From the NCBI RefSeq assembly GCF_947072685.1, contig NZ_CAMTIK010000024.1, positions 1-34,025 on the forward strand: DNA of 34,025 nucleotides, given 5' to 3'. The translations under genes and the position numbers were made by a program. The first letter of the stretch is position 1; each line of letters opens with the position of its first letter. Positions 2,346 to 22,613 of the stretch are shown piece by piece. The notes beneath the pieces are model-generated. The model searched no databases and was not told where the DNA came from. It saw only the letters and a list, made by a program, of their open reading frames with translations. Origin of the DNA: an uncultured Cetobacterium sp. (GTDB lineage Bacteria; Fusobacteriota; Fusobacteriia; Fusobacteriales; Fusobacteriaceae).

Positions 2346-2765
2346 CGCTTAAACGGATTCTATACGTAAAACACTATTTATATATGATTTTAAAATGAAG
2401 TTCCAAAAAACTGTGTTTTAGAGCGTTTTATTGTGTTTGCGATATTTTTAAAAATTTTTAAAAAAATAAAGGAAGTTGCATCTTTATTTTGAATAAGGGA
2501 GTAACAGATAGTTAGAATTAGTTTTATTAAAAGTGATTTTGATAAACATAGCCATCACACATTTTTTATTAAAGATTTTAATTTAGTTTTAGTTTTAGAT
2601 TTAAAAGTTTTAAATGGGTTAAAGATTTTAGATTTAATTATTTCAAATTTGTTTTAAGATTTTAATGGTAGAAAAATTTTGAGATTCTAACTATTTATAA
2701 AGTGATAGATTTAAAGATGAAAAGGTTTTTTAAATTGTTATTTCGTAATTTAATAGTATTATAAG
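2346..2765. other. AT-rich intergenic spacer with an 11-bp inverted repeat
   Basis: This is about 420 bp without a credible gene. It is very AT-rich and contains repeated variants of ttaaagatttta. A perfect 11-bp inverted pair, atagttagaat (2508-2518) and attctaactat (2684-2694), bounds a 187-bp segment. No frame stays open long enough or has a binding site worth calling. It could be decayed sequence, a small element remnant or a long untranslated region; nothing here decides between them. Confidence 0.4.
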
Positions 2766-2800
2766 AAATAGAGGGCTTGTGATGGCGCCCTCTATTTTTT
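2766..2800. terminator. Bidirectional rho-independent terminator
   Basis: An 11-bp stem (2766-2776 with 2787-2797, core tagagggc/gccctcta) and a 10-nt loop are followed by a T run on the plus strand. The minus strand shows a weaker T-rich tail. It lies 36 bp beyond the stop of the small minus-strand gene ending at 2836 and separates that operon from the two-component operon. Confidence 0.8.
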
Positions 2801-2835
2801 AGTTATGGGATGGAAATACTCTTATCCCAAACTGT

Positions 2836-3087
2836 TTACATTTCAAATATGTCTTCTATTTTTAGTTTTGTACCATCTAGAACTTTAAATTCAACGTAAG
2901 TATAGATCTCTTCTTCAGTTTCTAAAGTTTTATTCTCAAAAGCAATAACTCCATTTTCTAAAGCTTCTTTAACTTCACTATTATTTAAATCGTCATAAAT
3001 ATTATAATAGTCTTGTTCCATCATATATTTATTTAAGTCTTCAAATTCAATCTCTTTTCCTATCAATTCTAATTCATTTTTTAACAT
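2836..3087 (-). CDS. Small acidic protein, partner of helicase gene
   Basis: I do not recognise this 83-residue protein. It is strongly acidic: about 23 Asp/Glu against about 8 Lys and no Arg. It has no signal peptide, membrane segment or cysteine, and looks alpha/beta with long acidic helices. It starts 19 bp after the stop of the large helicase gene with a strong ribosome binding site (agaggag), so it is almost certainly co-transcribed. A second gene of this kind behind a nuclease-helicase could be a regulatory or inhibitory partner or a DNA-mimic-like protein, but that is inference from charge and position only. Confidence 0.75.
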   Translation of the reverse strand: MLKNELELIGKEIEFEDLNKYMMEQDYYNIYDDLNNSEVKEALENGVIAFENKTLETEEEIYTYVEFKVLDGTKLKIEDIFEM

Positions 3088-3106
3088 AAAAACACTCCTC
3101 TATTAT

Positions 3107-5947
3107 TTATTTTTTTAAAGTTAGGTATTCAAACAAATTTAATTCAATCTCTTCTTTTAATTTCAACTCATATTCTACAAATGAAGAACTATCTGTAGTG
3201 AAAATCTCTTTAGCACTTGAAACTGTTTCAACCTGCCCTACATAATAAAAATTTTCGCTAGCTATTTTTTTTATAAAAATTTCTAAAGTATATAGATTTT
3301 TAGATATTTTTCCTTCCGTTGTCAATTGATTGTTCCTGATTAAACATCTCTTATTTTTAGAAAACCATGTAAAACGATATTGATCAAAAAATTGATTATT
3401 ATAGTTCGAAAGAGAATCAGGAGAAGCAGTTACGAAAATGATAACTTTTTTTTCGTCTTCAAAAGTAGTGTAACCACTGACTTGATACCCATTATTATAA
3501 TCTAAATTGAGATACCAAAAAGCTTCTTGTTTTGTATATTCTTTATATTTTATTATAGAATGATCATTAAACTGTTTATAGTTTGTTTCGACATAGTTAA
3601 GATTATAAGCAATTAAGTCATCAATTAAGTTTTTAAAATAATAGTTATTTTTATAAGCCATTTTAAATTCTAAATTTAACTTATAGATTTCATCTTTTTT
3701 TTCTAAAATTTTTAAAAATTCTTTAGCTGTCGAAAGACTTGTAAAAATCTCTTTTGTAAGATGTTTTAAAGCATTTTGTGTATTTGAAAATTGATTATTT
3801 AAATTAAATGTATTTTCTATTAAATTGTTTAATTTTACTATGTTTTCAGATTCAAACTCTAATAAGTATTTTAATATAAAAATTTCATGAACACGTTTTG
3901 CAGGGGTAAAAAAACTTGATAAAAACTTTAGAAAATTATTTTCATGAGCATTTAAATTTCCGAAGTCTATTTGAGGTTCTAAAACCTTTAAGACCTCATT
4001 GTAATCTTTCTTATATTTTAAAATTATACTGGGATCAATCATATTTCTTTTAAAAAAATCATTTAAATATGGAATTCTTCCGAGTTGTTTTTTTAAAAGC
4101 TTATAGTCATGTTCAATATTTTTTTTTGTGGAAAAGTTTGTTTTGGATATATTTTCAAAAATTCTTTCTTTTACAATCTCTTCAAAAGATATACTGCTTT
4201 CACCAGGAATATAATTGGTCCCTTTATTAATAAATCGTTTCATAAAATCTTTATCATAACTGTTATTTTGAGATATAGCAGTTGGGATTAAAAAAGTTTT
4301 TTCATAGTTTCCTATAAAATCTAAGATAACTACAAACTCTTTATTTGAAGACTTTCTAAGCCCTCTTCCCAATTGTTGAATGTAAACTATAGCAGAATCT
4401 GTGGGTCTTAAAAGTAGAACTTGATTGACACAAGGTATATCAATACCTTCATTAAAAATATCAACGGTTATTAGGTATTCGAGATGACCATTCTCTAAAT
4501 CTTGAATAGCTTGATCTCTTACAAAGTCACTGTCTTCTCCGGTTAATGCTTTAGTTTTTATTCCTCGTTCATTTAATTTTTCACTTAAAAGTTTAGCTTC
4601 ATCAACTTTGGATACAAAAATTAAACCATGAAGTTTTAGGCCACTATACCCGTAGTAATTGCTTTTTTCAATTATATGATCTACTCTTTCTTCAATAACA
4701 AGATTTTTAATTGTTGTTTTTTCATCAATTAATTTTCCATTTACCTCTATATCTGAAATTCCAAAATAATGAAATGGGCAGAGTAGTTTTTCTTTTAAGG
4801 CATCATGCAGTCTAATTTCAAATGCGATTGTATGATTGAAGAGCTCGTAAATGTCAAAATCATCTCCTCTTTCAGGTGTTGCGGTCATACCCAAAAAAAA
4901 CTTTGGAGAAAAATAATTTATGATATTTTGGTAAGTCTTGGCTCCACTGTGATGAACTTCATCTATTATTATATAATCGAAGTAATCTTTACTAAATTTT
5001 TTTAGATGTTTCTCTCTTGTCAAAGTTTGAACCATAGCAAAAATAAAATCAGCGTTATCAATATCGTCTTCTCCATAAATTTTCATATTTTTATTAGAAA
5101 TTATACTTTCGTATGTACTTTTAGATTTTTCTAAAATCGTTTTTCTATGTGCAATAAAAAGAACTTTTTTAGGATTTGAAATTTTCACATCAAATGCACT
5201 TAAATAAGTTTTTCCTGTTCCAGTAGCACTTATTAAAAGTGCTTTATTTTTTGTTTTTCTAATTTGTTCCAAATTTTCTAAAGCTTGTATCTGCATGTAG
5301 TTGGGTTGAATTTCATCAGCTATTGTTGGGGATTCAAACAGACGTTGATTTTTTCTATATTCTTTTGAACAATTATATAAATTCTCATATTTTTCAATAG
5401 CAATCATATCTAAAAGTGGCAATTTATTAAATACATCATAAAAGTTTTTTAAAATTTCGTCAGCTATTTTTCCATTTTCCAAAGAACTAATTTTCAAGTT
5501 CCATTCAAAATTAGTTGTTAATGCAGTTTGAGTTAGATTACTACTTCCAATGATTAAATTCCAAATATTGTCTTTTTTAAAAAAATATCCCTTAGCGTGG
5601 AAGTTTTCATTAGAAAGAATCTTAAGCTCTATATTTTCATATTCTAATAATTTTTTTAAAGCTTTAGGTTGAGTAAAATTTAAGTAGTCCCCTGTTAAAA
5701 TTTTACCTTTTATATTCTTATTAGAGAGTTTTTTTAATTGCTCTAAAAGTAGAGTAACTCCACCTTCGGTTATAAATGCGACTGAGATTATGAACTCCTC
5801 ACAACTTTCTAAATATTCTCTGATAGATGTCACTATTTTCTCATTTTTATTGCTTAACAATTTACTCTGATAGAGATTTACAGATTCAAAATCTTTATCT
5901 ATTGAACTTGTTTTAAGCCCATCTATTAAATAGCTTGTATTTTTCAT
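3107..5947 (-). CDS. PLD-like / superfamily II helicase / DUF3427 protein
   Basis: Large 946-residue multidomain protein. The N-terminus (about 35-175) is a phospholipase-D-like nuclease fold with an HKD-type motif, H117-x-K119 followed by GSSN 134-137. The middle is a superfamily II DEAD/DEAH helicase with Walker A ATGTGKT (241-247), DEVH (329-332), TATPER (355-360), and motif VI QQLGRGLR (524-531). The C-terminal region, with EAFWYLNLDYNNGYQVSGY and a following beta-rich part, fits the DUF3427 domain. Proteins with this order are known and resemble restriction or defence ATPases; substrate and trigger are not established by the sequence. Only one HKD half-motif is obvious, as in PLD nucleases that dimerise. 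Its binding site is aaagga. The gene heads an operon with a small acidic protein gene. Confidence 0.9.
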   Translation of the reverse strand: MKNTSYLIDGLKTSSIDKDFESVNLYQSKLLSNKNEKIVTSIREYLESCEEFIISVAFITEGGVTLLLEQLKKLSNKNIKGKILTGDYLNFTQPKALKKLLEYENIELKILSNENFHAKGYFFKKDNIWNLIIGSSNLTQTALTTNFEWNLKISSLENGKIADEILKNFYDVFNKLPLLDMIAIEKYENLYNCSKEYRKNQRLFESPTIADEIQPNYMQIQALENLEQIRKTKNKALLISATGTGKTYLSAFDVKISNPKKVLFIAHRKTILEKSKSTYESIISNKNMKIYGEDDIDNADFIFAMVQTLTREKHLKKFSKDYFDYIIIDEVHHSGAKTYQNIINYFSPKFFLGMTATPERGDDFDIYELFNHTIAFEIRLHDALKEKLLCPFHYFGISDIEVNGKLIDEKTTIKNLVIEERVDHIIEKSNYYGYSGLKLHGLIFVSKVDEAKLLSEKLNERGIKTKALTGEDSDFVRDQAIQDLENGHLEYLITVDIFNEGIDIPCVNQVLLLRPTDSAIVYIQQLGRGLRKSSNKEFVVILDFIGNYEKTFLIPTAISQNNSYDKDFMKRFINKGTNYIPGESSISFEEIVKERIFENISKTNFSTKKNIEHDYKLLKKQLGRIPYLNDFFKRNMIDPSIILKYKKDYNEVLKVLEPQIDFGNLNAHENNFLKFLSSFFTPAKRVHEIFILKYLLEFESENIVKLNNLIENTFNLNNQFSNTQNALKHLTKEIFTSLSTAKEFLKILEKKDEIYKLNLEFKMAYKNNYYFKNLIDDLIAYNLNYVETNYKQFNDHSIIKYKEYTKQEAFWYLNLDYNNGYQVSGYTTFEDEKKVIIFVTASPDSLSNYNNQFFDQYRFTWFSKNKRCLIRNNQLTTEGKISKNLYTLEIFIKKIASENFYYVGQVETVSSAKEIFTTDSSSFVEYELKLKEEIELNLFEYLTLKK

Positions 5948-9466: not shown

Positions 9467-10945
9467 TTAGTTTTTTACAGAGGCCTTATACTCAAAATTT
9501 TTATCAAGAGGGAATATAGGTCTTTTAATCTTCTCATACTTTATATTTAAAATCTCTTCATTAGTACTTCCTGTTGTTAAAGCCATAATAGTTCTTCTAG
9601 AAAGAAGTTTATGGTGCTCTGTTAAATATCCCAATTTACAAACAATAATATTACGATTTTTAGGATCTAATCCCAAATCTGCGTACATTTCAGGAGTTAC
9701 ATACCCTACATGTTTCTCTGCTAAAATTATATCTACATTATTAACTCTTAAAACTGCTAAATCACTTTCATATGTTCCCCATTTTTCCAAATAGCTAATA
9801 ACCTTTCCTTTTAGAGTTAAAGGTTTTGTAGTTTTAGTATCAAACTTTGCTCCTGCTATAACTTCTATAGTTTGTCCAACTTTTCCCTTGCAAAATAATG
9901 TTGCCTCGGGATCATAAATTCCACCATAGATAATCGGAGTAGGGACATCTGTTGTTTTAGGATTTTCTAAAATTATTTGTAAAAATCCTGTACAATCTGA
10001 CGATGAACCAGCAGTAGGATTATCCCCAGAATCTGATAAATATATTGGAAATTTCGATTCATCTAAAGCATTTAGAGCAATTTCATAAGCTTTTTCGGGC
10101 TGATAAGTTTCTGTGTGAAAAGAAAATTCATCTCTTCTATCGAAAAACTCTTGTCCTATATCTTTTGAAATTGTATTTGCTAAATTTTTATCATCTGCTA
10201 CCACATAGATTCCAACAGCAGCCTCTTTACTATCAGCCCAAGGATACCCCATAAGAATAGAGACAGCTAAAACTCCCTGTTTTTTTTCATACTCTCTACA
10301 TTTATTTATAAAGTAAACCATAGGTTCGGTAGAAGTTTCTGATTGCTCACCAGCTATAAGCATAGGCACACTTACCCAAGCTTTTTTAGGGAGTATATTC
10401 TCTTTAAAAATATGTGTTAAAATCTTTGCTGCTTGCTCACCAGTTTCAAAGCAATCAGTATGTGGAGCACATTTATATCCAACAAATGCATCGGCATATC
10501 TATGCATTTTCTCAGTCATAGTTGTGTGCATATCAAGAGCAACAACAATGGGAATATCTTTAAAATATTTTCTAAGTTCCTCTAAAAGATCGCCTTCTGC
10601 CTCCCCTAACCCAACAACTCTCATAGATCCGTGAAGAGCTAGATTAATTCCATCTAATTTTTTAATTTTATCAGCTTCTAAAGCCCTTTCGATAAACTCC
10701 TTTTTTAATCTGTTGTAAAGTTCATAGCTGACCTCTCCATTTGGAACTGCTCTAGCACTAAGTGTTGGAACAACATCGTATCCATTTGCTTTTAAAGTGT
10801 CAACTATTCCTCTTAAAGCATTATTTTTTGTTTCAAAAACTAATGAATCCTCTCCATATTTTATAGAAAAATCTTTTTCATCCGTAATAATTGGATTAAA
10901 AGAATTAGATTCATGATGCATAGATCCCACTAAAACTCTTTTCAT
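9467..10945 (-). CDS. M81-family metallopeptidase (MlrC-like)
   Basis: A 492-residue protein of the M81 / DUF1485 (MlrC) family, named for the metallopeptidase that degrades linearised microcystin in sphingomonads. Family signatures include GSMHHESNSFNP at the N-terminus, ALDMHTTMT with likely metal ligands D138 and H140, PHTD (H162, D164) and SDSGDNPTAGSSSDCT. No signal peptide is present, so it is cytoplasmic. The open frame begins at 10984, but aaggagag sits correctly before the ATG at 10945, giving MKRVLVGSMHH. It is the last gene of a dipeptide/oligopeptide ABC operon, which suggests it processes the imported peptide or amide; the true substrate is unknown. Confidence 0.9.
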   Translation of the reverse strand: MKRVLVGSMHHESNSFNPIITDEKDFSIKYGEDSLVFETKNNALRGIVDTLKANGYDVVPTLSARAVPNGEVSYELYNRLKKEFIERALEADKIKKLDGINLALHGSMRVVGLGEAEGDLLEELRKYFKDIPIVVALDMHTTMTEKMHRYADAFVGYKCAPHTDCFETGEQAAKILTHIFKENILPKKAWVSVPMLIAGEQSETSTEPMVYFINKCREYEKKQGVLAVSILMGYPWADSKEAAVGIYVVADDKNLANTISKDIGQEFFDRRDEFSFHTETYQPEKAYEIALNALDESKFPIYLSDSGDNPTAGSSSDCTGFLQIILENPKTTDVPTPIIYGGIYDPEATLFCKGKVGQTIEVIAGAKFDTKTTKPLTLKGKVISYLEKWGTYESDLAVLRVNNVDIILAEKHVGYVTPEMYADLGLDPKNRNIIVCKLGYLTEHHKLLSRRTIMALTTGSTNEEILNIKYEKIKRPIFPLDKNFEYKASVKN

Positions 10946-10965
10946 TGCACTCTCCTTTTGTATAT

Positions 10966-11943
10966 TTATTTTACCAAATGACATGCTACTTTGTGTTCAC
11001 TTTTTCTGTCAGAACAATCCTTTAAAGTAGGCATTTTCTCTTTACATAAACTAAAGACTTTTGGACATCTTGTAGAAAATGGACACCCAGATGGTCTATC
11101 AATTGGACTGGGGATATCTCCTTTTAAAATAATTCTCTCTCGTTTTTTATTTGCTTCAGCTACAGGTATTGCTGATAATAAAGCTTCAGTATAAGGATGT
11201 TTAGGGCTATTATAAATATTTTTCTTATCTCCTATTTCAACTAAATTTCCCAAATACATAACTCCCACTCTATCAGAAATAAGTTCTACCACACTTAAAT
11301 CATGAGATATAAAAAAATATGTCAGGTTAAATCTTTCTTGTAAATCTTTAAAAATATTTATAACCTGAGCTTGAATACTGACATCTAAAGCAGATATAGG
11401 CTCATCTGCTATAATCAAGCTAGGATTTACAGAGATTGATCTAGCTATTCCTACACGCTGTCTTTGCCCTCCGCTAAACTCATGAGGAAATCGCTCACCA
11501 TGACTACTACTAAGTCCAACCAAATCCAAAAGTTCTAGAGCTTTTTTCTCCCTTTCTTTTACAGAAAGTTCCGAATGAACAAGAAGAGGCTCAGAAATCA
11601 AGTTTTTTATCTTCATTCTTGGATTTAAAGAGCCATAAGGATCTTGAAAAATAACTTGCATATCTTTTCGAAATGGAAGCATCTCCTTTGAATTATACTC
11701 AGTTATATCCACCCCTTTAAACTTAATTCTTCCTTCTTCAACATCCAATATTTTATTTATAACTCTTCCTAAAGTTGATTTTCCACAACCACTTTCACCA
11801 ACTATAGACAAAGTTTCACCCTTAAAAATTTCTAAAGAGACGTTGTTAACTGCGTGTACATATTTTTTTTCTTTTTTAAATCCTTTTTGAGAAACTAAGA
11901 ATTTTTTACTCACTCCATCTAGCTGAACTAAAACTTCTCTCAT
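10966..11943 (-). CDS. dppF: Peptide ABC transporter ATPase (DppF/OppF-like)
   Basis: ATPase subunit of the peptide importer, 325 residues from the supported start. It has Walker A GESGCGKST, Q-loop IFQDPYGSLNPRM, signature FSGGQRQRVGIARS, Walker B LIIADEPISALDVS, H-loop ISHDLS and the C-terminal OppF-type tail with GCPFSTRCPKVFSLC, a cysteine motif seen in the peptide/nickel subfamily. The open frame reaches 11976, but agggagg precedes the ATG at 11943 (MREVLVQLDG), which also removes overlap with the upstream ATPase gene. It pairs with DppD as a heterodimer at the inner face of the membrane. Confidence 0.93.
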   Translation of the reverse strand: MREVLVQLDGVSKKFLVSQKGFKKEKKYVHAVNNVSLEIFKGETLSIVGESGCGKSTLGRVINKILDVEEGRIKFKGVDITEYNSKEMLPFRKDMQVIFQDPYGSLNPRMKIKNLISEPLLVHSELSVKEREKKALELLDLVGLSSSHGERFPHEFSGGQRQRVGIARSISVNPSLIIADEPISALDVSIQAQVINIFKDLQERFNLTYFFISHDLSVVELISDRVGVMYLGNLVEIGDKKNIYNSPKHPYTEALLSAIPVAEANKKRERIILKGDIPSPIDRPSGCPFSTRCPKVFSLCKEKMPTLKDCSDRKSEHKVACHLVK

Positions 11944-11954
11944 GAAATCCTCCC

Positions 11955-12920
11955 TTAATCTAAAATCAAATGACATCTACATTTTCGTCCGTTTGATAAC
12001 TCTTTAAGTTTGGGTTCATCCACCAAACATTTTTGAACTGCCACCTTGCACCTTGGAGCAAATTTACATCCTTTTGGCATATTAGTTAAATCTGGAACTT
12101 TCCCCTCGATGTATGGCAACGTTGTTGCTCCACTTCCAAGTTTTGGAACAGAAGCTATAAGTCCCTTCGTATATGGATGCATTGGATTATCAAATAACTC
12201 TTGAACACTTGATTTTTCCATTATTCGTCCTGCATACATAACAATAACATTATCACAAGTTTCCGCAATAACTCCTAAGTCGTGAGTTATTAAGAGGATT
12301 CCCATTTGATGTTTTTCTTTTAATTCCAATAATAGGTCCATAATCTGAGCTTGAATGGTAACATCTAAAGCAGTTGTAGGCTCATCTGCTATTAAAAGTT
12401 GTGGATTACAAGACATAGCCATTGCAATCATAACTCTTTGGCACATTCCACCGCTCAGTTGATGAGGATACCTATTTAAAACACTTTCAGGGCTGGGGAT
12501 TCCAACTAGTTGCAACATTTTCAAAGCATGATTTTCCGCTTCTTTTTTACTATATTTTAAATGAAGTTTTGTACATTCCATAAGTTGATCTTTTATTTTT
12601 AAAATTGGATTTAAAGATGATATAGGATCTTGAAATATTGTAGCTATTTTTCCACCACGAATTTTTTTCATATCCCTATTAGAAAGATTTAAAATATTTT
12701 CTCCTTGAAAAAAAATCTCTCCATTTATTAGAGCATTTTCCTCATGAAGTCTCATAATAGACATAGAGGTCACTGATTTTCCACTTCCACTTTCTCCAAC
12801 AAGACCTAATGTTTCACCTTTTTCTATTTTAAAAGATACATCTTCAATAGCTGTTAAAATTTTTTTATCTTTTTTAAACTGTGTTTTCAAATTTTTAACT
12901 TCCAATAAGTAATTTATCAT
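11955..12920 (-). CDS. dppD: Peptide ABC transporter ATPase (DppD/OppD-like)
   Basis: A 321-residue ATPase with Walker [11 protein letters not shown]-loop [11 protein letters not shown], signature [14 protein letters not shown], Walker [23 protein letters not shown]-loop and a C-terminal oligopeptide-transporter tail containing [15 protein letters not shown]. Together with the next ATPase it powers the DppB/DppC channel. The start ATG has the site aggagcg. It begins 8 bp after the dppC stop, consistent with one operon. Confidence 0.94.
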
Positions 12921-12928
12921 AATCGCTC

Positions 12929-13780
12929 CTAATTAAGTTTTGGGTCTAAAGTATCTCTTAAACCATCGCCAAGTAAGTTAAAAGATAGTACTGTTAAAAA
13001 AATCATAAGCCCAGGATAAAAAAGCATATGTGGTGCTAATCCTATATAATCTCTTCCTGTTGAAAGCATAGCTCCCCAATCTGGATTTGTAGGGCTTGCT
13101 CCAAATCCCAGAAAACTTAAAGAAGCAGCAGAGATTATTGCTGTTCCAATTCTCATCGTTAAAGTTACGATCAATGCAGGAAGAGTACCTGGTAGAATAT
13201 GAACTAAAAGTATTCTAAAATCACTAACTCCAATAGATTTACAAGCTTCTATATAAAGTTGTTTCTTTAAAGAGATAGTAGCACTTCGAACTATTCTTGT
13301 AAAAGATGGGATTCCATATATCGCAATAGAGATGATAACGTTTATAAGTCCAGGACCTATAATAGCTACTATTCCAATAGCGAGAAGTAGTCCAGGAAAA
13401 GAAAACATAACATCACAACACCTCATGATAACACTCTCTATTTTTCCACCATAATACCCTGCGACAAGTCCTAATATACATCCAATAAATGCTCCAATCG
13501 AAACAGCTGTTAAAGAAACTAAAAGAGATAATCTAGTTCCAGCTATAACTCTACTAAAAAGATCTCGACCGTATTCATCAGTTCCAAACCAATGTTTCGA
13601 ATTGGGTTCAGCTAATAAATTTTCATAATCAGCATAGTTTAAATCATATGGAACTGGTTGAAAAACAGCTATAATAATTAAAAAAAATATAAATAAAAGT
13701 GAAATAACTGCGACTTTTCTTTTTAAAAAATTTTCCAAAAACTCCCTAATAGGATTTTTAAAAACATCGTTTTCATCCAT
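12929..13780 (-). CDS. dppC: Peptide ABC transporter permease (DppC/OppC-like)
   Basis: A 283-residue inner-membrane permease. An N-terminal membrane segment (about 26-46), a periplasmic loop with HWFGTDEYGRDLFSRVIAG (diagnostic OppC_N to BPD_transp_1 junction) and further hydrophobic segments fit the family. The EAA loop that contacts the ATPases is SIGVSDFRILLVHILPG. The start is supported by aggagag. It forms the channel with DppB, 14 bp upstream in the operon. Confidence 0.94.
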   Translation of the reverse strand: MDENDVFKNPIREFLENFLKRKVAVISLLFIFFLIIIAVFQPVPYDLNYADYENLLAEPNSKHWFGTDEYGRDLFSRVIAGTRLSLLVSLTAVSIGAFIGCILGLVAGYYGGKIESVIMRCCDVMFSFPGLLLAIGIVAIIGPGLINVIISIAIYGIPSFTRIVRSATISLKKQLYIEACKSIGVSDFRILLVHILPGTLPALIVTLTMRIGTAIISAASLSFLGFGASPTNPDWGAMLSTGRDYIGLAPHMLFYPGLMIFLTVLSFNLLGDGLRDTLDPKLN

Positions 13781-13794
13781 AATATCTCTCCTTT

Positions 13795-14715
13795 TTAATC
13801 GTATCTAATTTTTGGGTTTAAAACTCCATATAAAACATCTACAATAAGATTAACTATGATGAATTGTAGAGTAAAAATCAGTAAAATTACTTGAATAACT
13901 GTGTAGTCTCTAAAAAGAATAGAATCTATAAGTAATCTTCCAAGCCCTGGTATTGTAAAAACTGTTTCTACTAAAACTGATCCTGCCAGTAAAAATCCAA
14001 ACTGTAGTCCTACTATAGTAACTACATCTATAAGGGAATTTCTAAGAGTATGCTTCATTATAACCCAAAACTCACTGATTCCTTTGGCTCTTGAAGTTCT
14101 AATATAGGGTTCCTTTAAAATTTCACACATAGATGATCTTGTGTATCTTGCTATCATAGAAGTTATTCCAGCTCCTAAAGTTATAGCGGGAAGAATGTAA
14201 CTTTTAAATGAATCCGTTCCTCCTGTAGGAAACCAACCAAGGGTAACAGAGAACACTTGAATTAGCATCAGTCCTAACCAAAAAAGCGGTAAAGATATTC
14301 CAGAGATAGCTACTATCATCACAACATAATCTAGAATTTTACCCCTATTAACAGCAGAAATTATCCCAGCAATTACTCCAAAAATAGTTGCCCAAATAAT
14401 TGATAGAATAGCTAACATGAAGGTGGGTTTAAACCTAGGAGCAATCATATCCTTTATCGGAATCCCGGTCTTAATTGAATTCCCAAGCTCTCCACTAAAA
14501 AAACTTTTTATAAAATTAAAATATTGTATATAAAGTGGCTTTGTAAGTCCTAAATGCTCTCTCATCAATTGAATTTCATCAATTGTGGCATTTTGGCCAG
14601 CAAGTAATCTAGCTGGGTCTCCTGGAATTAAGTGAATAAACATGAAAATTAAAATTGAAACTATAAATAATATGGGAATTGTGTTGATTAATCTTCGAAA
14701 AAAATACCCGCTCAT
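13795..14715 (-). CDS. dppB: Peptide ABC transporter permease (DppB/OppB-like)
   Basis: A 306-residue permease with the DppB signature region FIHLIPGDPARLLAG near the N-terminus, about six membrane segments and an EAA loop AKGISEFWVIMKHTLRNSL. The open frame extends to 14763, but that start would lie within a stem-loop. The ATG at 14715 (MSGYFFRRLINTIP) has a strong binding site aaggagag at ideal spacing and the normal family N-terminus. Confidence 0.93.
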   Translation of the reverse strand: MSGYFFRRLINTIPILFIVSILIFMFIHLIPGDPARLLAGQNATIDEIQLMREHLGLTKPLYIQYFNFIKSFFSGELGNSIKTGIPIKDMIAPRFKPTFMLAILSIIWATIFGVIAGIISAVNRGKILDYVVMIVAISGISLPLFWLGLMLIQVFSVTLGWFPTGGTDSFKSYILPAITLGAGITSMIARYTRSSMCEILKEPYIRTSRAKGISEFWVIMKHTLRNSLIDVVTIVGLQFGFLLAGSVLVETVFTIPGLGRLLIDSILFRDYTVIQVILLIFTLQFIIVNLIVDVLYGVLNPKIRYD

Positions 14716-14740
14716 AGCACTCTCCTTTAAAAATTTATAA

Positions 14741-14769
14741 TAAAAAGGTAGTCGCAAAAACAACTACCT
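14741..14769 (-). terminator. Intra-operon stem-loop after the binding-protein gene
   Basis: On the minus strand aggtagt (14769-14763), a 10-nt loop and actacct (14752-14746) are followed by five T residues. It lies between the stop of the binding-protein gene and dppB. It is best read as a partial terminator or 3' stabilising hairpin that keeps binding-protein mRNA more abundant than permease mRNA. Confidence 0.6.
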
Positions 14770-14785
14770 ACATAATTTTATAGTT

Positions 14786-16303
14786 TTATTTAGTAGTGTC
14801 AGCTTTAGTAAAATTTATAGTTCCATCAGGCATTACATAAACACCTAGAGTGGTTTTTCTTTTGGCAGAAATTAATTGATCAGAACCAAGGAAAATCCAA
14901 GGAGCATCTTCCCATATAGTCTCTTGCAATTGAGCATAAATTTCCCCTCTTTTTTCAGAGTTTACTTCTATCGCTCCCTTTTCAAGAAGTTCATCAACTT
15001 TTGGATTGTTGTAGTATGCTGTGTTTGCAGAAACAGGAGGAGCAAATTTGCTGTGAAATAGATTTTTAGTAGCTCCATCTATATCAAATGAAGACCAGTT
15101 AACATACCACATGTTTATAGTTGCATCCTCTGGAGTTTGTACATTATAGATTGAGTTTGAAAGAGTACCCTCTTCCATTGGCATCACTTCAACATCTACT
15201 CCTATTTGGGCAAGTTGTTGGTGAATGAATTGCATTCCTTTCATATCTTCAGTGTTATTTGATCCCCAAATAGTCGCTTTAAATCCATTGGGATACCCCG
15301 CTTCTTTCATTAACTCTTTGGCTTTATTTACGTCATAATTATAAGGCGTTAATTTTACATGATACTCTAATGCTTCGGGAACTGGGGATGTAAGAGGAAC
15401 TAAATATCCCGATTTTACAACAGCAGAGTAAGCATTTTTATTGATGGCATGATTTATTGCCTGTCTCACTTTTTTATTTGAAAATATATCTTTATTAGTA
15501 TTTAGTGTTACGTATCTTGTTATAGTTGAAAAACCTTTCATAATCTCTATATCATTGGATTTTTCTAGTTTTTTAACCTGTTCAGTAGGCATTGGATAAA
15601 TGAAATCAGCTTCCCCTGTTTGAAGCATAGCAACTCTAGATCCATTTTCCATAACAGGTCTAAATGTTATTAGATCTATATTTGGTTTTTCTCCCCAATA
15701 CTCATCGTTTCTTTTAACAACGAGTTTATCCCCTTGGGTCCAATTTACATAAGTATAAGCTCCTGTTCCTACAGGATTTGTAATAATTCCCTGAGCTCCA
15801 TATTTTTCAAGAGCGGCAGGACTCACTATTTTCAGCGAAGCTATTCTATTTAACATAGGTGCAAAGGGTTGTTTAAGAATCAATTTAACTTCATACTCGC
15901 CAGAGACTTCAACTCTATCAACTGCAATAAAGTTTCTACGTCTTCTAAGATTATTTTTCTCATCCATAACCCTATCAAAATTAAATTTTACTGCTGCTGC
16001 ATTAAGAGCTGTTCCATCTTGAAAAATTATTCCCTGTCTAATTGGAATTGTATAAACTAAACCATCTTCAGATATTGTATATCCAGTTGCTAGTGTTGGC
16101 CTTAAAGTCATATCATCATTATATGTAAAAAGACCCTCGTACATAGTTGATACCGCTGTTCCAGAAAGTGTATCTGAAAGATTATGAGGGTCTAAAGATA
16201 TGAAATTAGCATTGACTGCTACTGTTATATCTTTTCCTTCAGAAAAACTAAGTGATGATGCAAGAAGCATTAAAATTCCAATTCGGCCTAATTTTTTTTT
16301 CAT
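14786..16303 (-). CDS. dppA: Periplasmic peptide-binding protein (SBP_bac_5)
   Basis: A 505-residue extracytoplasmic solute-binding protein of the DppA/OppA/GsiB family. It has a cleavable signal peptide (about 1-23) without a lipobox cysteine, so it is soluble in a periplasm, as expected in a Gram-negative cell. Family features are NFISLDPHN, the STMYEGLFTYND region, RQGIIFQDGTALNAAAVKFNFDRV and the RQAINHAINKNAY hinge segment. It delivers the substrate to DppBCDF; the ligand (dipeptide, glutathione, modified peptide) cannot be read from sequence. First gene of the operon, with the site gggaggg and a good promoter upstream. Confidence 0.93.
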   Translation of the reverse strand: MKKKLGRIGILMLLASSLSFSEGKDITVAVNANFISLDPHNLSDTLSGTAVSTMYEGLFTYNDDMTLRPTLATGYTISEDGLVYTIPIRQGIIFQDGTALNAAAVKFNFDRVMDEKNNLRRRRNFIAVDRVEVSGEYEVKLILKQPFAPMLNRIASLKIVSPAALEKYGAQGIITNPVGTGAYTYVNWTQGDKLVVKRNDEYWGEKPNIDLITFRPVMENGSRVAMLQTGEADFIYPMPTEQVKKLEKSNDIEIMKGFSTITRYVTLNTNKDIFSNKKVRQAINHAINKNAYSAVVKSGYLVPLTSPVPEALEYHVKLTPYNYDVNKAKELMKEAGYPNGFKATIWGSNNTEDMKGMQFIHQQLAQIGVDVEVMPMEEGTLSNSIYNVQTPEDATINMWYVNWSSFDIDGATKNLFHSKFAPPVSANTAYYNNPKVDELLEKGAIEVNSEKRGEIYAQLQETIWEDAPWIFLGSDQLISAKRKTTLGVYVMPDGTINFTKADTTK

Positions 16304-16357
16304 TAATTCCCTCCCGTAAATTCAAATACTGAGTATACAAATCAATATTAGTATAGG

Positions 16358-16386
16358 TATATACTTTATATTGACCTGAAAGTCAA
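16358..16386 (-). promoter_or_regulatory. Promoter and inverted repeats upstream of dppA
   Basis: On the minus strand TTGACT (16386-16381), a 17-bp spacer and TATATA (16363-16358) form a near-consensus promoter. The -35 is part of an inverted repeat, ttgac-ctgaaa-gtcaa on the plus strand (16371-16386). A second one, agtata/tatact, overlaps the -10. Both look like operator sites, regulator unknown. Confidence 0.55.
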
Positions 16387-16390
16387 GAAG

Positions 16391-16448
16391 AAAATTAAAA
16401 AAACCTTCAAATTAGATAGTATATTCACTACCTGAATTCGAAGGTTTA
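16391..16448 (-). terminator. Terminator of the glycerol dehydratase operon
   Basis: On the minus strand a long hairpin, aaaccttcgaatt pairing with aatttgaaggttt (one G-U), is extended by an inner aggtag/ctatct stem and followed by a T-rich run (complement of 16391-16402). It ends the pocR transcript just upstream of the dppA promoter. Confidence 0.85.
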
Positions 16449-16470
16449 TACAAATATTTAATTAAAATTT

Positions 16471-17352
16471 TTATTTTTGAAAAAGATCCCTATAATCTTT
16501 AGGGCAGATTTTTTCATATTTTTTAAATACTTTTGTAAAATAACTGCTATCCTCTATGCCTATTTCATTAGATATTTCGGATAGAGATTTATTAGTTATT
16601 TCTAAAAAATACTTAGCCTTTTCAACTTTTTTTATAAGAATATATTCCTTAAATGTTTTTCCTATTTCTTTTTTAAAAACTCTACTAAATTGTGAAATAC
16701 TTAAATTGCATAATCCAGCAACATCTTCTAAATAAATATTTTCTTTAATTTTTTCGTTTATATGGGTGATGGCTGCTGAGATTTGAGAGTGACTATATTG
16801 TACTCTTTCTTCTTTTATATTGTTTTCTACAATATGGTTGTACCATTTTTTGTTTTTAATACATTCACTTATATAAACTGATGTATAATGTAAAATACTT
16901 GCAATACTTTGCAAATCATTGTATTTAACTTTTTTTAAAAAATCGTAATTTTCAGCGATTTTCTTTAGATTAAACTCTTTACCCACATTTTCTATTAAAA
17001 TATTTTCTAATTCAAAAGTTTCTTCATCTTCTAAGAGTATCTGCCCTACTAAAAATGCTCCTATTAGTTCTCCTTGATAAATAATAGGAATTATCATATC
17101 CACTAAGCCAGCATGACATCTATAAATATAGGGTTTTAGGGATAAAAATACTTTGCTTAAAGCTTTCACATCACATTTTTCACAAAAACAATTAAGTTCT
17201 TTATTTTTTCTAAAAATTTTACAAAACTCTGAATAGTTACTCTTTTCTGTTAAGTAATTTCCTTCATCATCTACGATTACTATAGCCATTTTAGTCATAT
17301 TGACTATCTCTTCTTGAATTTTTATTAACTCTTTCCTATATTTATAAAGCAT
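16471..17352 (-). CDS. pocR: PocR-type AraC-family regulator
   Basis: A 293-residue transcription activator. The N-terminal PocR sensory domain (about 5-165) has the cysteine pattern C44, C55, C57, C60 and C79-H80 (RCHAGLVDMIIPI), seen in PocR proteins that sense diols or glycerol and possibly bind a metal. The C-terminal AraC domain (about 190-293) has two helix-turn-helix units (NIYLEDVAGLCNLSISQFSRVFKKEIGKTFKEY and a second ending SSYFTKVFKKYEKICPKDYR; pieces listed are only landmarks). Last gene of the operon, 20 bp after gdrB, so it would amplify its own expression. The likely targets are the divergent glcG/dhaB and dhaT promoters. Confidence 0.92.
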   Translation of the reverse strand: MLYKYRKELIKIQEEIVNMTKMAIVIVDDEGNYLTEKSNYSEFCKIFRKNKELNCFCEKCDVKALSKVFLSLKPYIYRCHAGLVDMIIPIIYQGELIGAFLVGQILLEDEETFELENILIENVGKEFNLKKIAENYDFLKKVKYNDLQSIASILHYTSVYISECIKNKKWYNHIVENNIKEERVQYSHSQISAAITHINEKIKENIYLEDVAGLCNLSISQFSRVFKKEIGKTFKEYILIKKVEKAKYFLEITNKSLSEISNEIGIEDSSYFTKVFKKYEKICPKDYRDLFQK

Positions 17353-17372
17353 ATTTTACACCTTTCATTTTT

Positions 17373-17696
17373 TTATTTTTTTAAAGGTAACCCTTTTAAG
17401 ATTCTAGCAGCATTTTGACCAAAAATTCGTAACTTTTTTTTTGAACTTTTTATATTTTCTTTTAAAATAAAATCCTTTGAGTATTTTTTTTGATTGAGGA
17501 CTATCTCGCCGTCAAAATCTATTCCTATTCCTATTTCAAACCTCCCATTTGTATATAGATCTTTGTTAATTTTTTCTAATTGTAAAAATTTAAAAATATA
17601 TGGGATTTCTTCTTCTTCTATTCCAAAAAAAATATCTTCGATATCATTAATTTTTATAATATTTGAACATACAATATCTATTCCAGCTTTTGTCAT
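17373..17696 (-). CDS. gdrB: Glycerol dehydratase reactivase small subunit
   Basis: A 107-residue small subunit (DdrB/DhaG type) of the dehydratase-reactivating factor. It replaces the dehydratase medium subunit during cofactor exchange. Family marks are the N-terminal V-C-S, GIEEEEIPY (the glutamate motif that can coordinate metal in this family), and C-terminal LRIFGQNAARILKGLP. It overlaps the large-subunit gene by 4 bp (ATGA), typical of coupled expression of two partners. Confidence 0.9.
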   Translation of the reverse strand: MTKAGIDIVCSNIIKINDIEDIFFGIEEEEIPYIFKFLQLEKINKDLYTNGRFEIGIGIDFDGEIVLNQKKYSKDFILKENIKSSKKKLRIFGQNAARILKGLPLKK

Positions 17697-19510
17697 ATCA
17701 TCTCACCTAAAACTAATCCTGTTGCAACCGCATTTCGAGGACCTTCCGTTCCTCTTATATTCCCACACCCAGCAACTACACCACATTTAGAAAGAGCTTC
17801 TGTTATCATTTCAGGTACTTCAAAATCAAGAGCCGACCCACCAACTATGATTACAAATTCAAAATCTCTTATATTTTTTGTAAGAGATATTTTTTTTAAT
17901 GCTCTTTTTGAATTTACTACAAACACTTTTTTTTTGCTCTCTCTTCTAATATTTCTGATTTTTTCTAAAGTAGCTTCAACTTCGATTGGAATTAATTCTC
18001 CATTTTTAATTAAAACAATTTTGGCATATATATTTGGAGATAAAGGTTCGTCAAAAAATTCAACACTTCCATCTTCATATCTAATATGAAAAAATGATTC
18101 AACTTTTGCCAAGGGATATTTTTTTATATCTTCAGCTAAAGTGAAATCTTTAATCCCAAGCTCTTTTTGTATCAACAAAGTTACCATATTTCCCGCTCCT
18201 GCTAAATGAGTATGGGCTTTTCTTCCAGCTTTATCTATACTACACGCATCTGTAGAACCAGCACCGATATCAATTATAGCTAAAGGTTTTCCTGTTCCAG
18301 GAGTAGTTAACGCTCCTTTGATTGCCATGTCGGCCTCTACTCCTGCAACTTCGACATCTACACCCAAATCGGTTTCAATCACCTTTGCTAAGTGGTCCAT
18401 TTGATTTTTCTCAGTACCAACCATTACCGCTAGACCTACTGCATTTTCTAACATAAACTCTCCAGCTAATCCACCTTTAATTTTTTGGGGAACAAAAGTA
18501 TCTACAGCAAGTAAATCTTTTATTTTTATAGCGTCTATATTTTCTCCTGTAAATTTGCTCATAGTATTTTTTACATTTTTAAGCATTCCACCTACATTGG
18601 TTCCATCCTCACCACAAATATCTTGTACATTTAAAAATGATAATTTTTCCATTATTTTTTCTGCACCTTCTTGGATACCAACTTCTTCGGTAGATTTATT
18701 TCCCTTTATATATAAATTTCCGGCAGGAATAATTTTTTCTTTTACATCTCCTTGAGGAGTTTTTATTACGACTCCCGATCTATTACCTATTAAAGCTTTA
18801 GATAACGGAACAACTTTTTTTGTTTCTTCTGGATTTAATTCAAAAATAGTTGCAATTCCATATGGATTTGATATTTTTTCAATAACTCTACCTTTTAAAG
18901 CCACTTCTACACAACACTTAACTCCTATAGGTATTTTTTCAAGCAGCTGAACTTCATCAACTATTGGAATTTTTATTGCTAATCTATTGTTTACAAGAAC
19001 ACCATCATCTTTTTGTAAAATAGCTCCTTTTATCCTGACTTTTCTCTCCATTTCAAGATTTAAAATTTTTGCTATCTCTAAGAAATTTTTTTCTTCATTT
19101 GCTATAACTATATAATCCTTATCCAATAACTCTTCACTTAAATTTTTAAGATCGTCTAGTTCAATTGTTATTCCAACTCCGATACCACAACCGCCAGGAG
19201 TGTCAGGATTATGTCCAATCATAGTTGATTCTGTTATTATAGTTTCAGTAATTGTTTCCATAGATACATCCCCTATTACAGGAGTAGCTTCATTTATACG
19301 AATCAAATTTAAATCATCTAAACTCAAATTAACTTTTGTTAATAGAGAAGAAATAGCTCTTTTTACTCCTTCTAGATTATCCTTAGTTCCTTTTAATCCA
19401 GTAGTTTTAGAAAGGGAACTTCCTAAAAATTTTATTCCAAAGTTGTCTATTTTAGCTAAAGCTACTTCTGTTGTTGCGTTACCTATATCTATACCTGCAA
19501 TAATTTTCAT
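17693..19510 (-). CDS. gdrA: Glycerol dehydratase reactivase large subunit
   Basis: A 605-residue DdrA/DhaF-type ATPase that acts as a chaperone, releasing inactivated cobalamin from glycerol dehydratase. Its actin/Hsp70-like nucleotide-binding motifs are visible: GIDIGNATTEVALAKI at the N-terminus, AIIDIGAGSTDAC in the second half, and VIIVGGSALDFEVPEM near the end. Length matches the Klebsiella protein. It lies 13 bp downstream of the dehydratase small-subunit gene, with site aggag. Confidence 0.96.
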   Translation of the reverse strand: MKIIAGIDIGNATTEVALAKIDNFGIKFLGSSLSKTTGLKGTKDNLEGVKRAISSLLTKVNLSLDDLNLIRINEATPVIGDVSMETITETIITESTMIGHNPDTPGGCGIGVGITIELDDLKNLSEELLDKDYIVIANEEKNFLEIAKILNLEMERKVRIKGAILQKDDGVLVNNRLAIKIPIVDEVQLLEKIPIGVKCCVEVALKGRVIEKISNPYGIATIFELNPEETKKVVPLSKALIGNRSGVVIKTPQGDVKEKIIPAGNLYIKGNKSTEEVGIQEGAEKIMEKLSFLNVQDICGEDGTNVGGMLKNVKNTMSKFTGENIDAIKIKDLLAVDTFVPQKIKGGLAGEFMLENAVGLAVMVGTEKNQMDHLAKVIETDLGVDVEVAGVEADMAIKGALTTPGTGKPLAIIDIGAGSTDACSIDKAGRKAHTHLAGAGNMVTLLIQKELGIKDFTLAEDIKKYPLAKVESFFHIRYEDGSVEFFDEPLSPNIYAKIVLIKNGELIPIEVEATLEKIRNIRRESKKKVFVVNSKRALKKISLTKNIRDFEFVIIVGGSALDFEVPEMITEALSKCGVVAGCGNIRGTEGPRNAVATGLVLGEMI

Positions 19511-19523
19511 AATTAAATTACTC

Positions 19524-19946
19524 CTAATCTCTTCTTAACTTGCCTCTTTTTTCATAAATTTCTGCAGCTTCTCTAATGAAGTTTGCATTTACGATAGCTC
19601 CATATTTATGTTCAAGTTCATCTGCAATTTCTAAAAGTTCCTCTTTTTTAGATCTATTTGGTCTTAAAGCATTGTATATTTCTAATATTCTTTCATCCGA
19701 AATTCTAACTAATTCACTAGCTCTTTGAAAATTTCTTTTTATAGTCGGTTGTCCTGCAGCCTCAGCTACCTCTCCTTGAAGATTTAGAGTTTCCGAAGAG
19801 ATTCTAATATCTTGTGCCTTAATATTTTCGTCTAAAACATTTTCTAAAGTGATCTCATCTAACGTTTTTCCAGTCGGAGTTTTTAGCCATTCTTTTCTTT
19901 TTTCTCCTAAAGGATAATCCAGTTCAATGTTAATTTTTTTCTTCAT
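19524..19946 (-). CDS. dhaE: Glycerol dehydratase small (gamma) subunit
   Basis: A 140-residue small subunit of coenzyme-B12-dependent glycerol dehydratase. Diagnostic stretches are DYPLGEKRKEWLKTPTGK, DEITLENVL, QDIRISSETL and DERILEIYNALRPNRS, then ADELEHKYGA. It stabilises the alpha-beta-gamma heterotrimer. The ATG has site aaggag, 11 bp after the medium-subunit gene. Confidence 0.96.
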   Translation of the reverse strand: MKKKINIELDYPLGEKRKEWLKTPTGKTLDEITLENVLDENIKAQDIRISSETLNLQGEVAEAAGQPTIKRNFQRASELVRISDERILEIYNALRPNRSKKEELLEIADELEHKYGAIVNANFIREAAEIYEKRGKLRRD

Positions 19947-19957
19947 TTTTCATCTCC

Positions 19958-20506
19958 TTATTCAAAAGTATATTCTAACTCTTCAGGTTTTTCGTTATCT
20001 TTTACATGTTTTGTTTCTTTTATATGTAATAGTGCTGCTTTTGCTTGGTATTTTGGTCTTACCATTTGATCACTTATAACAGGAACAGGATTTGGAGATT
20101 CCCCTTTAGCATATTTAGCGGCATTTTTACCGATTAACCTGTAAATTTCTGGTGTCAAAAGTGGGGCTTGGGGAAATAGTTCTAAGTTATTTAAGGGAAG
20201 CAAATCTTTTTGGTGTATAACTGTTGTTCCTTTAGATTGTATACCTATTCCTATACCTGAACCACTTAACTTAGCAGCATCATTAGCTATAAAACAAACA
20301 TCTGAAGTTCTATTTATTCTTACGACTCTAGCTATCAATCCCTCTTCTTCTATTCCAGCAATTAATTCCATCAATACTATATTATGTGGAACATCAGTTA
20401 TGGTTTTATTTTGATGTTTTTTAAATGCGGGTGCTAATCCAATAACAACTTCTTCTATTTTAACACCTTTTTTTGCAATTCCAACCTCTTTTATTTTTAT
20501 TTCCAT
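19958..20506 (-). CDS. dhaC: Glycerol dehydratase medium (beta) subunit
   Basis: A 182-residue medium subunit. It shows [50 protein letters not shown] and [16 protein letters not shown]; the last region contributes to binding the lower axial part of adenosylcobalamin. The N-terminal extension is short, as in glycerol dehydratases and unlike the longer microcompartment-targeted PduD, which fits a free cytosolic enzyme. The binding site is aggagga. Confidence 0.96.
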
Positions 20507-20515
20507 TTCTTCCTC

Positions 20516-22180
20516 CTATTCAATACTCTCTGGCTTTATAGCTGTCGGAATGTTAGAGATTTCACTCCATCTCTCCTCGCTCATTCTGTACCCACTTCCT
20601 GGGCCCATATAATCATTTTTATCATTTATTGCACTTACAATTTTAAAATCTTTATTCAGAATAGCTGACGTTTGAAGATAGTCACCTGAAACTCTTTGCT
20701 TTAACATATTTAGTACATTTTCTGCAACATCTTTAAATCCGCTTTTGCTTAAACCTTTGACTAAGTCTAATCCGGTTATTCCTCTTTTTAAAAGTTCTTC
20801 AGCTCCTTTTAAATCTTGAACAACATCTCTAAGTGGCATATCCTTACTTCCATGTGCATAAGTTGCCGCATATACCTCTTCATCAGTTATTTCTGGAAGG
20901 TCTAACTCTTTGAATAATCCTTGGATTGCTTTAGCAGCTTTATTTCTTATTTTTATTACTTCTTCTTCAGATACTGGTCTTAATCCACCATCAACTTTTA
21001 AATCTCTTTGTAAAATATTATAATCATCAAAATCTTCAGCATCAAAATTTGATCCAGCAAACATATTATCATAATTTGGGACTGCACTGTATCCAGAAAA
21101 AATAAAATCTGTTCCAGGTAACATCTGCATTAAAGTTCTAGCGGTCCTTCTTATATCAGAGTGAGAAAAAGTTTGATCATTAGCCGAAGCACACTCTAAA
21201 TCTAAAAGCATTGCTATTAAGTTTTCTCCTAGAACTGCTCTAATCCCTCCTGGAAGTGCACCAGGCATTCCAATACAGCTTACTGCTCCATTTTGTAGGC
21301 CTTGAACTCCAGCTCCTCTAGTTATATAGATACATCTAGTTTCTAAGTATAACATTGATTTTCCTTCAGAGTACCCCATTAACGCTTCTGAACCTGTTCC
21401 TGAAGTAAATCTCATTTTTAAACCTCTTGAAGCATAAGCGGATGCTAAAAATGCTTTTGACCAAGGAGTGTCATCGCCATCTGTAAATACTTGTTCTGTT
21501 CCGTAAACAGAAACTGTTTCTGCATAACTTGTAAATCCTTTCATTCCAAGCTCTAATTCTGTAGCTTCTTCAACTGAACACTGAGTTAAAACTCCACCTC
21601 TTCCAACTTGAGATCCAACAAAAATAGCAATAGCATTAAAAGGAGCATATCTTACAATTCCAACAGTTGTTTCTTGTTCATCAAAGCCTCTAATAGCAGC
21701 TTCAGCTGCATCTGCCGAAATTTGTACTGGATTATCTCTTAGATTTGTTACATGGCATTGATTAGAAGGCGTTTTTCTAGCTCTCATTTTTTGGACTGAC
21801 ATCATCATCTCAACAACATTTAGATGACTAATTACTTCAACCATTTTTGCTGGCGTTATTCCAGTAGTTATTTTAAGAATATCTTCTTTTTTAACATTTA
21901 TATCAACTAACTTTTTTGCAATTTCTAATGTTGATAATTTCATTGCTTCTTCAGCATATCTTAAATCAATAGCATAATCAGCTATGAAAAGGTCTATCAT
22001 ATCAAAATTTTCTCTTTTTTTTCCATCTAATTCTATTATTTTTCCGTGTTTAATTATTAAACTTGGTTTAGGATCTAAAGGACTATCCATAGCTATTAGG
22101 CCTTCTTCTTTCCACTCACCTATAAACCCATCTTTATTCACTGCTCGTTTACTTAAAACCTCAAAACGTTTTGATTTCAT
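20516..22180 (-). CDS. dhaB: Glycerol dehydratase large (alpha) subunit
   Basis: A 554-residue catalytic subunit of coenzyme-B12-dependent glycerol dehydratase (EC 4.2.1.30), which turns glycerol into 3-hydroxypropionaldehyde by radical chemistry in a TIM barrel. Length and sequence closely follow Klebsiella DhaB1. The active-site residues known from the diol/glycerol dehydratase structures are all present at the expected numbers: H143, E170, E221, Q296 and D335. Stretches such as TPSNQCHVTNL, YGTEQVFTDGDDTPW and FIFSGYSAVPNYDNMFAGSN are near-invariant. The binding site is ataggagga. It needs adenosylcobalamin; no cobalamin adenosyltransferase gene is in the window. Confidence 0.98.
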   Translation of the reverse strand: MKSKRFEVLSKRAVNKDGFIGEWKEEGLIAMDSPLDPKPSLIIKHGKIIELDGKKRENFDMIDLFIADYAIDLRYAEEAMKLSTLEIAKKLVDINVKKEDILKITTGITPAKMVEVISHLNVVEMMMSVQKMRARKTPSNQCHVTNLRDNPVQISADAAEAAIRGFDEQETTVGIVRYAPFNAIAIFVGSQVGRGGVLTQCSVEEATELELGMKGFTSYAETVSVYGTEQVFTDGDDTPWSKAFLASAYASRGLKMRFTSGTGSEALMGYSEGKSMLYLETRCIYITRGAGVQGLQNGAVSCIGMPGALPGGIRAVLGENLIAMLLDLECASANDQTFSHSDIRRTARTLMQMLPGTDFIFSGYSAVPNYDNMFAGSNFDAEDFDDYNILQRDLKVDGGLRPVSEEEVIKIRNKAAKAIQGLFKELDLPEITDEEVYAATYAHGSKDMPLRDVVQDLKGAEELLKRGITGLDLVKGLSKSGFKDVAENVLNMLKQRVSGDYLQTSAILNKDFKIVSAINDKNDYMGPGSGYRMSEERWSEISNIPTAIKPESIE

Positions 22181-22196
22181 CGCTCCTCCTATAAAA

Positions 22197-22613
22197 TTAT
22201 AAAGAATTTAATGCTGCTTTAGCTATCTCCATATCTTCTTCAACTGTCCCACCACTTACACCAACAGCTCCAACAATTTCTCCTTTTATAATAATAGGAA
22301 AGCCACCCCCAAAAGTTATTATTCTTGAGTTATTTGTTAAATTTAAACCATATAAACTTTCTCCAGGTAAAACAACTTCACTAAGCTGATCTGTTCCTAT
22401 TTTTAATGCCCAAGCAGTAAAAGCTTTGTTTATAGATATATCAACACTTGTTACAAAAGCTTCATCCATTCTTTCTAAATACAATAAATTTCCTCCGTTA
22501 TCAACAACTGAAAATACTACTGGTACCCCTATTTCTAAGGCTTTTTTTAGTACTGCTACACCCATTTTTTTTGAAGCATTTAAAGTAATCTGATTAAAAT
22601 TTTTTATAATCAT
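22197..22613 (-). CDS. GlcG/HbpS-family protein of glycerol operon
   Basis: A 138-residue protein of the GlcG/HbpS-like family (also the C-terminal domain of PduO), with the patterns VVFSVVDNGGNLLYLERMDEA, ISINKAFTAWAL and the glycine-rich GGGFPIIIKGEIVGAVGVSGG. Proteins of this family are common in B12-dependent diol/glycerol operons. The homologue HbpS binds haem and PduO-C binds haem or cobalamin-related cofactors, so a role in cofactor handling is likely but unproven. First gene of the operon, with site gggagg. Confidence 0.92.
   Translation of the reverse strand: MIIKNFNQITLNASKKMGVAVLKKALEIGVPVVFSVVDNGGNLLYLERMDEAFVTSVDISINKAFTAWALKIGTDQLSEVVLPGESLYGLNLTNNSRIITFGGGFPIIIKGEIVGAVGVSGGTVEEDMEIAKAALNSL

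Follow-up and report, generated by a model that had tools for sequence, protein, structure and literature searches.

A SauUSI-like type IV restriction enzyme gene in Cetobacterium and the genus-specific acidic protein gene beside it

We consider it highly probable that two adjacent genes of an uncultured Cetobacterium sp. are separate in function, the larger encoding a SauUSI-family, ATP- and modification-dependent type IV restriction enzyme that acts without a partner and the smaller, 83 codons long, being an independent Cetobacterium-specific gene. Both lie in the window, by which we mean the whole stretch of DNA analyzed (34,025 nucleotides; contig NZ_CAMTIK010000024.1, positions 1 to 34,025). 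An earlier note, made from the sequence alone, had read the pair as a two-gene immunity module, a false lead that is averted by comparing gene order across the genus.

Both minus-strand open reading frames reported in the earlier note are real genes, and each begins with ATG. The 946-aa gene (3107–5947), identified through Pfam, PADLOC, PDB 7clg and Foldseek, is upstream, and the 83-aa gene (2836–3087), recognized by its distribution in the genus and by purifying selection, follows on the same strand. The 19-nt gap between them (3088–3106, minus strand) contains a GAGGAG ribosome-binding-type stretch 5' of the small gene. Beyond the small gene, the stretch at 2760–2835 (minus strand) holds an 11-bp hairpin (AGAGGGC..GCCCTCT) that is likely to end the transcription unit; RNA folding places it at about 2760–2800, with -25.8 kcal/mol and a z score of -5.43. 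In the sister genome G004, RNA folding likewise shows a strong hairpin of this kind 3' of the small gene (z -5.2). A terminator scan found no terminator-like site between the two genes, and it also missed the 2760–2800 hairpin, the loop of which is longer than the scan allows. Co-transcription of the two genes up to the hairpin is thus plausible from the sequence in both genomes, and in the window species the 83-aa gene would simply happen to occupy the terminal position in the transcription unit of the restriction gene. The surroundings of the pair at 9467–22613 are metabolic, with an M81 peptidase, an oligopeptide-type ABC transporter and then a diol dehydratase with its reactivase. The window genes that were scanned gave no sign of a defence island.

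Judged by its sequence, the 946-aa protein is a SauUSI-type, type IV restriction enzyme, a further member of a known family. Pfam finds PLDc_2 (residues 56–169, E 1.8e-10), ResIII (213–360), Helicase_C (442–532) and DUF3427 (675–943, E 1e-41), the same fusion and order that the earlier note had described. The PADLOC type IV restriction model mREase_IV (PDLC03658) matches residues 11–943 of 946 (E 4.4e-186), with no distinguishing feature among those tested. The best PDB sequence match is SauUSI of Staphylococcus aureus, chain 7clg_A (phmmer, E 6.8e-184, residues 13–943), and 7clg is also the top fold match of the predicted structure (Foldseek, E 7.6e-55). That model (mean pLDDT 66.4, pTM 0.40, rmsd 22 Å to 7clg) has unreliable inter-domain geometry and served for family recognition only; membership rests on the sequence. 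The two proteins are similar in length (946 and 953 aa) and share the order PLD, SF2 ATPase, coupler and DUF3427/SRA, which in the window protein corresponds to a PLD nuclease at about residues 1–190, an SF2 ATPase at about 213–550, a helical coupler and a DUF3427/SRA-like reader at about 800–943. The full-length matches to mREase_IV and 7clg bear out the earlier suggestion that the large protein is a restriction or defence machine.

For SauUSI itself, PMC7913695 describes a dimer held together by its PLD domains and carrying an SF2 motor, in which an SRA-fold target reader recognizes 5-methylcytosine, activating the ATPase and leading to translocation and shredding of the DNA. By analogy, the C-terminal SRA-like DUF3427 domain of the window protein would flip out and read a modified cytosine on DNA entering the cell. 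Such reading would switch on the SF2 motor and set the enzyme translocating, after which the dimeric PLD nuclease would cut or shred the DNA. Substrate and cleavage activity are inferred from the same comparison. A single SauUSI polypeptide suffices in vitro and in E. coli, as stated in PMC3874153, and the window enzyme would therefore need no partner.

Many of the residues on which this chemistry would depend are retained. We aligned the window protein with those of 14 chosen loci (alignment A2, 15 proteins; two genus members were left out, G006 and G003, whose contig stops at the gene) and mapped SauUSI residues by comparing the phmmer pairing with 7clg against this alignment. In the same account, SauUSI has catalytic residues H119/K121 and E126 and a pocket for the flipped 5mC formed by Y831, W868, F841/I842, D858 and M829 (PMC7913695). 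The PLD catalytic pair H117 and K119 (SauUSI H119 and K121) is invariant (15/15), as are the Walker A motif ATGTGKT with T247 (SauUSI T256), the DExH motif of Walker B (D329, E330, H332), motif VI QQLGRGLR with the arginine finger R531 (SauUSI R544), and the reader-pocket residues Y826 and W861 (SauUSI Y831 and W868). The hydrophobic pocket positions F841/I842 stay hydrophobic.

Three positions set the window protein and its aligned relatives apart from SauUSI. At position 124 of the PLD motif, where SauUSI has E126, the acid of HxK(x)4E, every one of the 15 proteins carries K or R. Thus, the "HKD-type" domain of the earlier note holds for the HxK pair but not literally for the complete H(X)K(X)4D/E motif, which lacks its acid here. 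The loss of this acid is not decisive against membership in the SauUSI family, because the match is full-length and the HxK pair is kept. In the reader, the cytosine-contacting D858 is replaced by asparagine (N851) in 13/15 proteins and by histidine in 2/15, and M829 is replaced by S or A. The substitutions at E126 and D858 could alter enzyme activity, and N851 in place of aspartate may change which modified base the reader recognizes. Because D858 is N or H in the aligned relatives, the exact modified base is left uncertain, and the Asn-for-Asp change raises a small, testable question about substrate.

The 83-aa protein is strongly acidic, as first described, with 23 D+E against 8 K+R and a pI of 4.08. 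All 10 genomes with the gene have an intact copy. Comparing the copies of the window genome and G004 gives a dN of 0.092 and a dS of 0.73, indicating that the gene is under purifying selection and functional; the 946-aa gene is under purifying selection in the same comparison. The earlier note had not recognized the protein, and indeed it could be assigned neither to a family or PDB sequence nor clearly to a fold: we found no Pfam domain above cut-off, no PADLOC or NCBIfam hit, no meaningful PHROG match and no match among PDB sequences. Searches of viral contigs gave no relative and searches of phages no match; among plasmids only two C. somerae records matched, and among genome contigs three loci, all from Cetobacterium sp. 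An AlphaFold2 model (pLDDT 86.4, pTM 0.77) returned nothing at E <= 0.001 from PDB or BFVD with Foldseek. An anti-CRISPR-like reading finds no support in VIA-align, as the best Z of 4.2 is at or below background (6exp AcrID1, rmsd 3.4 over 65 aligned residues, and 3djw AFV1 ORF-99, rmsd 3.8 over 70, followed at Z 4.1 by 2r5x and 2h36).

The protein is confined to Cetobacterium. Its gene occurs in 10/12 genomes of the genus, and a profile search across 98 genomes of the phylum gave no convincing relative in the 86 that lie outside it, with one weak match of 54 residues. That match (E 1.2e-4, hhalign probability 69) lies in a histidine-kinase-like ORF of G030 (L078:3393-4934); by BLAST, the same ORF matches the window's histidine kinase at 27% identity. 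This hints at a relation to sensor-kinase domains, on which none of our conclusions rests.

Open reading frame maps place the small gene next to the helicase gene in only two of the 10 carriers, namely the sister genomes G000 (the window genome) and G004. The remaining eight have it 16–21 nt behind a porin gene of the Tsx type (Pfam Channel_Tsx), which in turn follows an aminotransferase gene adjacent to yvcK. A convergent aminopeptidase P gene lies 3' of the small gene in 7/8 of these genomes; in the eighth, G006, the contig stops with the small gene. None of the eight has its closest helicase match on the contig that carries the small gene. G009, for example, has the small gene on contig C2, which equals the C. 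somerae CS2105-BJ plasmid in length and coordinates, and its closest match to the helicase on the 1.9-Mb contig C1. The C. somerae hypothetical protein WP_240220356.1 (MKD34_RS11025) is 54% identical to the window's 83-aa protein over 83/83 residues, but, unlike the window's gene, its gene is on a 705-kb plasmid, 3' of an OmpK/Tsx-type porin gene and away from the restriction gene. This plasmid, of 704,842 bp, is that of C. somerae CS2105-BJ, and the order of porin and small gene recurs on another C. somerae plasmid. We conclude that the 83-aa product is most likely a cytoplasmic, genus-specific protein with a selected role independent of the restriction enzyme, because its gene is unlinked from the enzyme in 8/10 carriers.

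The window genome and G004 retain the yvcK-aminotransferase-porin-aminopeptidase block intact without the small gene. The spacing from porin to aminopeptidase is 49 nt in G004, and in the window genome it is 3.8 kb with two other ORFs. This gap in the window genome, on contig C12 (L074:4740-8550), holds a 515-aa ORF that is 41.6% identical to the window ORF at 32410–33948, and a 643-aa ORF. The pairing of the small gene with the restriction gene is not a misassembly, because it recurs in two assemblies. The pairing is kept across a divergence of 79–81% amino-acid identity between G000 and G004, which, in both trees, split from the other small-gene carriers in them; in the helicase tree, G001 falls outside, on a long branch. 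The two gene positions would fit relocation as well as duplication with differential loss, and either arrangement may be ancestral.

That the pairing was kept across the divergence of G000 and G004 makes a lineage-specific link between the enzyme and the 83-aa protein possible. The acidic protein could have been recruited under the restriction gene's promoter on this branch only, to modulate the enzyme or to be induced with it, and the adjacency conserved in two species and the purifying selection on both genes are consistent with this. We nevertheless regard such recruitment as unlikely: the 83-aa protein is also well conserved where it is unlinked, suggesting a selected role that is not tied to restriction. 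An elaborated version, in which one Cetobacterium branch captured a genus-specific acidic alpha/beta protein into the unit to regulate the enzyme, for example by mimicking DNA and so limiting self-cleavage, and in which the Asn-bearing reader recognizes a modified base other than plain m5C, seems to us very unlikely.

Still less probable is the dedicated immunity module of the earlier note, in which the acidic protein would bind the nuclease and restrain (or activate) it in the manner of an antitoxin or DNA mimic. The two genes do share a strand and a downstream hairpin across a short gap, the pairing is kept between G000 and G004, and the small protein is strongly acidic. However, the note had proposed collecting homologs and asking whether the small gene always accompanies the helicase, and this linkage is not conserved, an outcome that the note itself had named as a refutation: in most carriers the small gene follows the porin gene instead, and only 2/29 helicase loci with readable downstream sequence are followed by the small gene (30 loci were examined, one of which runs off its contig). 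Moreover, the helicase family is widespread where the small gene is missing. A helicase-family match is present in 47/61 relatives, including 12/12 genomes of the genus, where identity is 57% or more in every case. Two of these genus members have no detectable small gene, in assemblies that are 82% and 94% complete, and outside the genus the helicase family is matched in 35/49 genomes and the small gene is found in 0/49. The activity reported for SauUSI as a single polypeptide (PMC3874153) likewise argues against the 83-aa protein being a dedicated partner, inhibitor or antitoxin. Finally, it is very unlikely that the 946-aa protein is instead a DNA-repair or general helicase of the RadD or XPB kind, since its weaker matches to RadD and XPB span the ATPase core only, whereas its PLD domain, DUF3427 domain and full-length order match SauUSI.

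If the large protein is, as we favor, a SauUSI-type enzyme acting alone, it would be expected to attack methylated plasmid DNA brought into Cetobacterium, which would matter for transformation. A literature search combining Cetobacterium with restriction terms gave no mention of Cetobacterium among the matches listed.

At four of the 29 readable helicase loci (L029, L035, L037 and L038), an ORF of 129–137 aa lies at -4 to +20 nt 3' of the SauUSI-like gene. These ORFs are of two dissimilar types, with 56% and 88% identity within type and no BLAST match between types (E 1e-3), and may represent a more recurrent partner of the enzyme than the 83-aa gene. The three that were scanned all match Pfam NUDIX, and the L038 ORF is 88% identical to that of L037.
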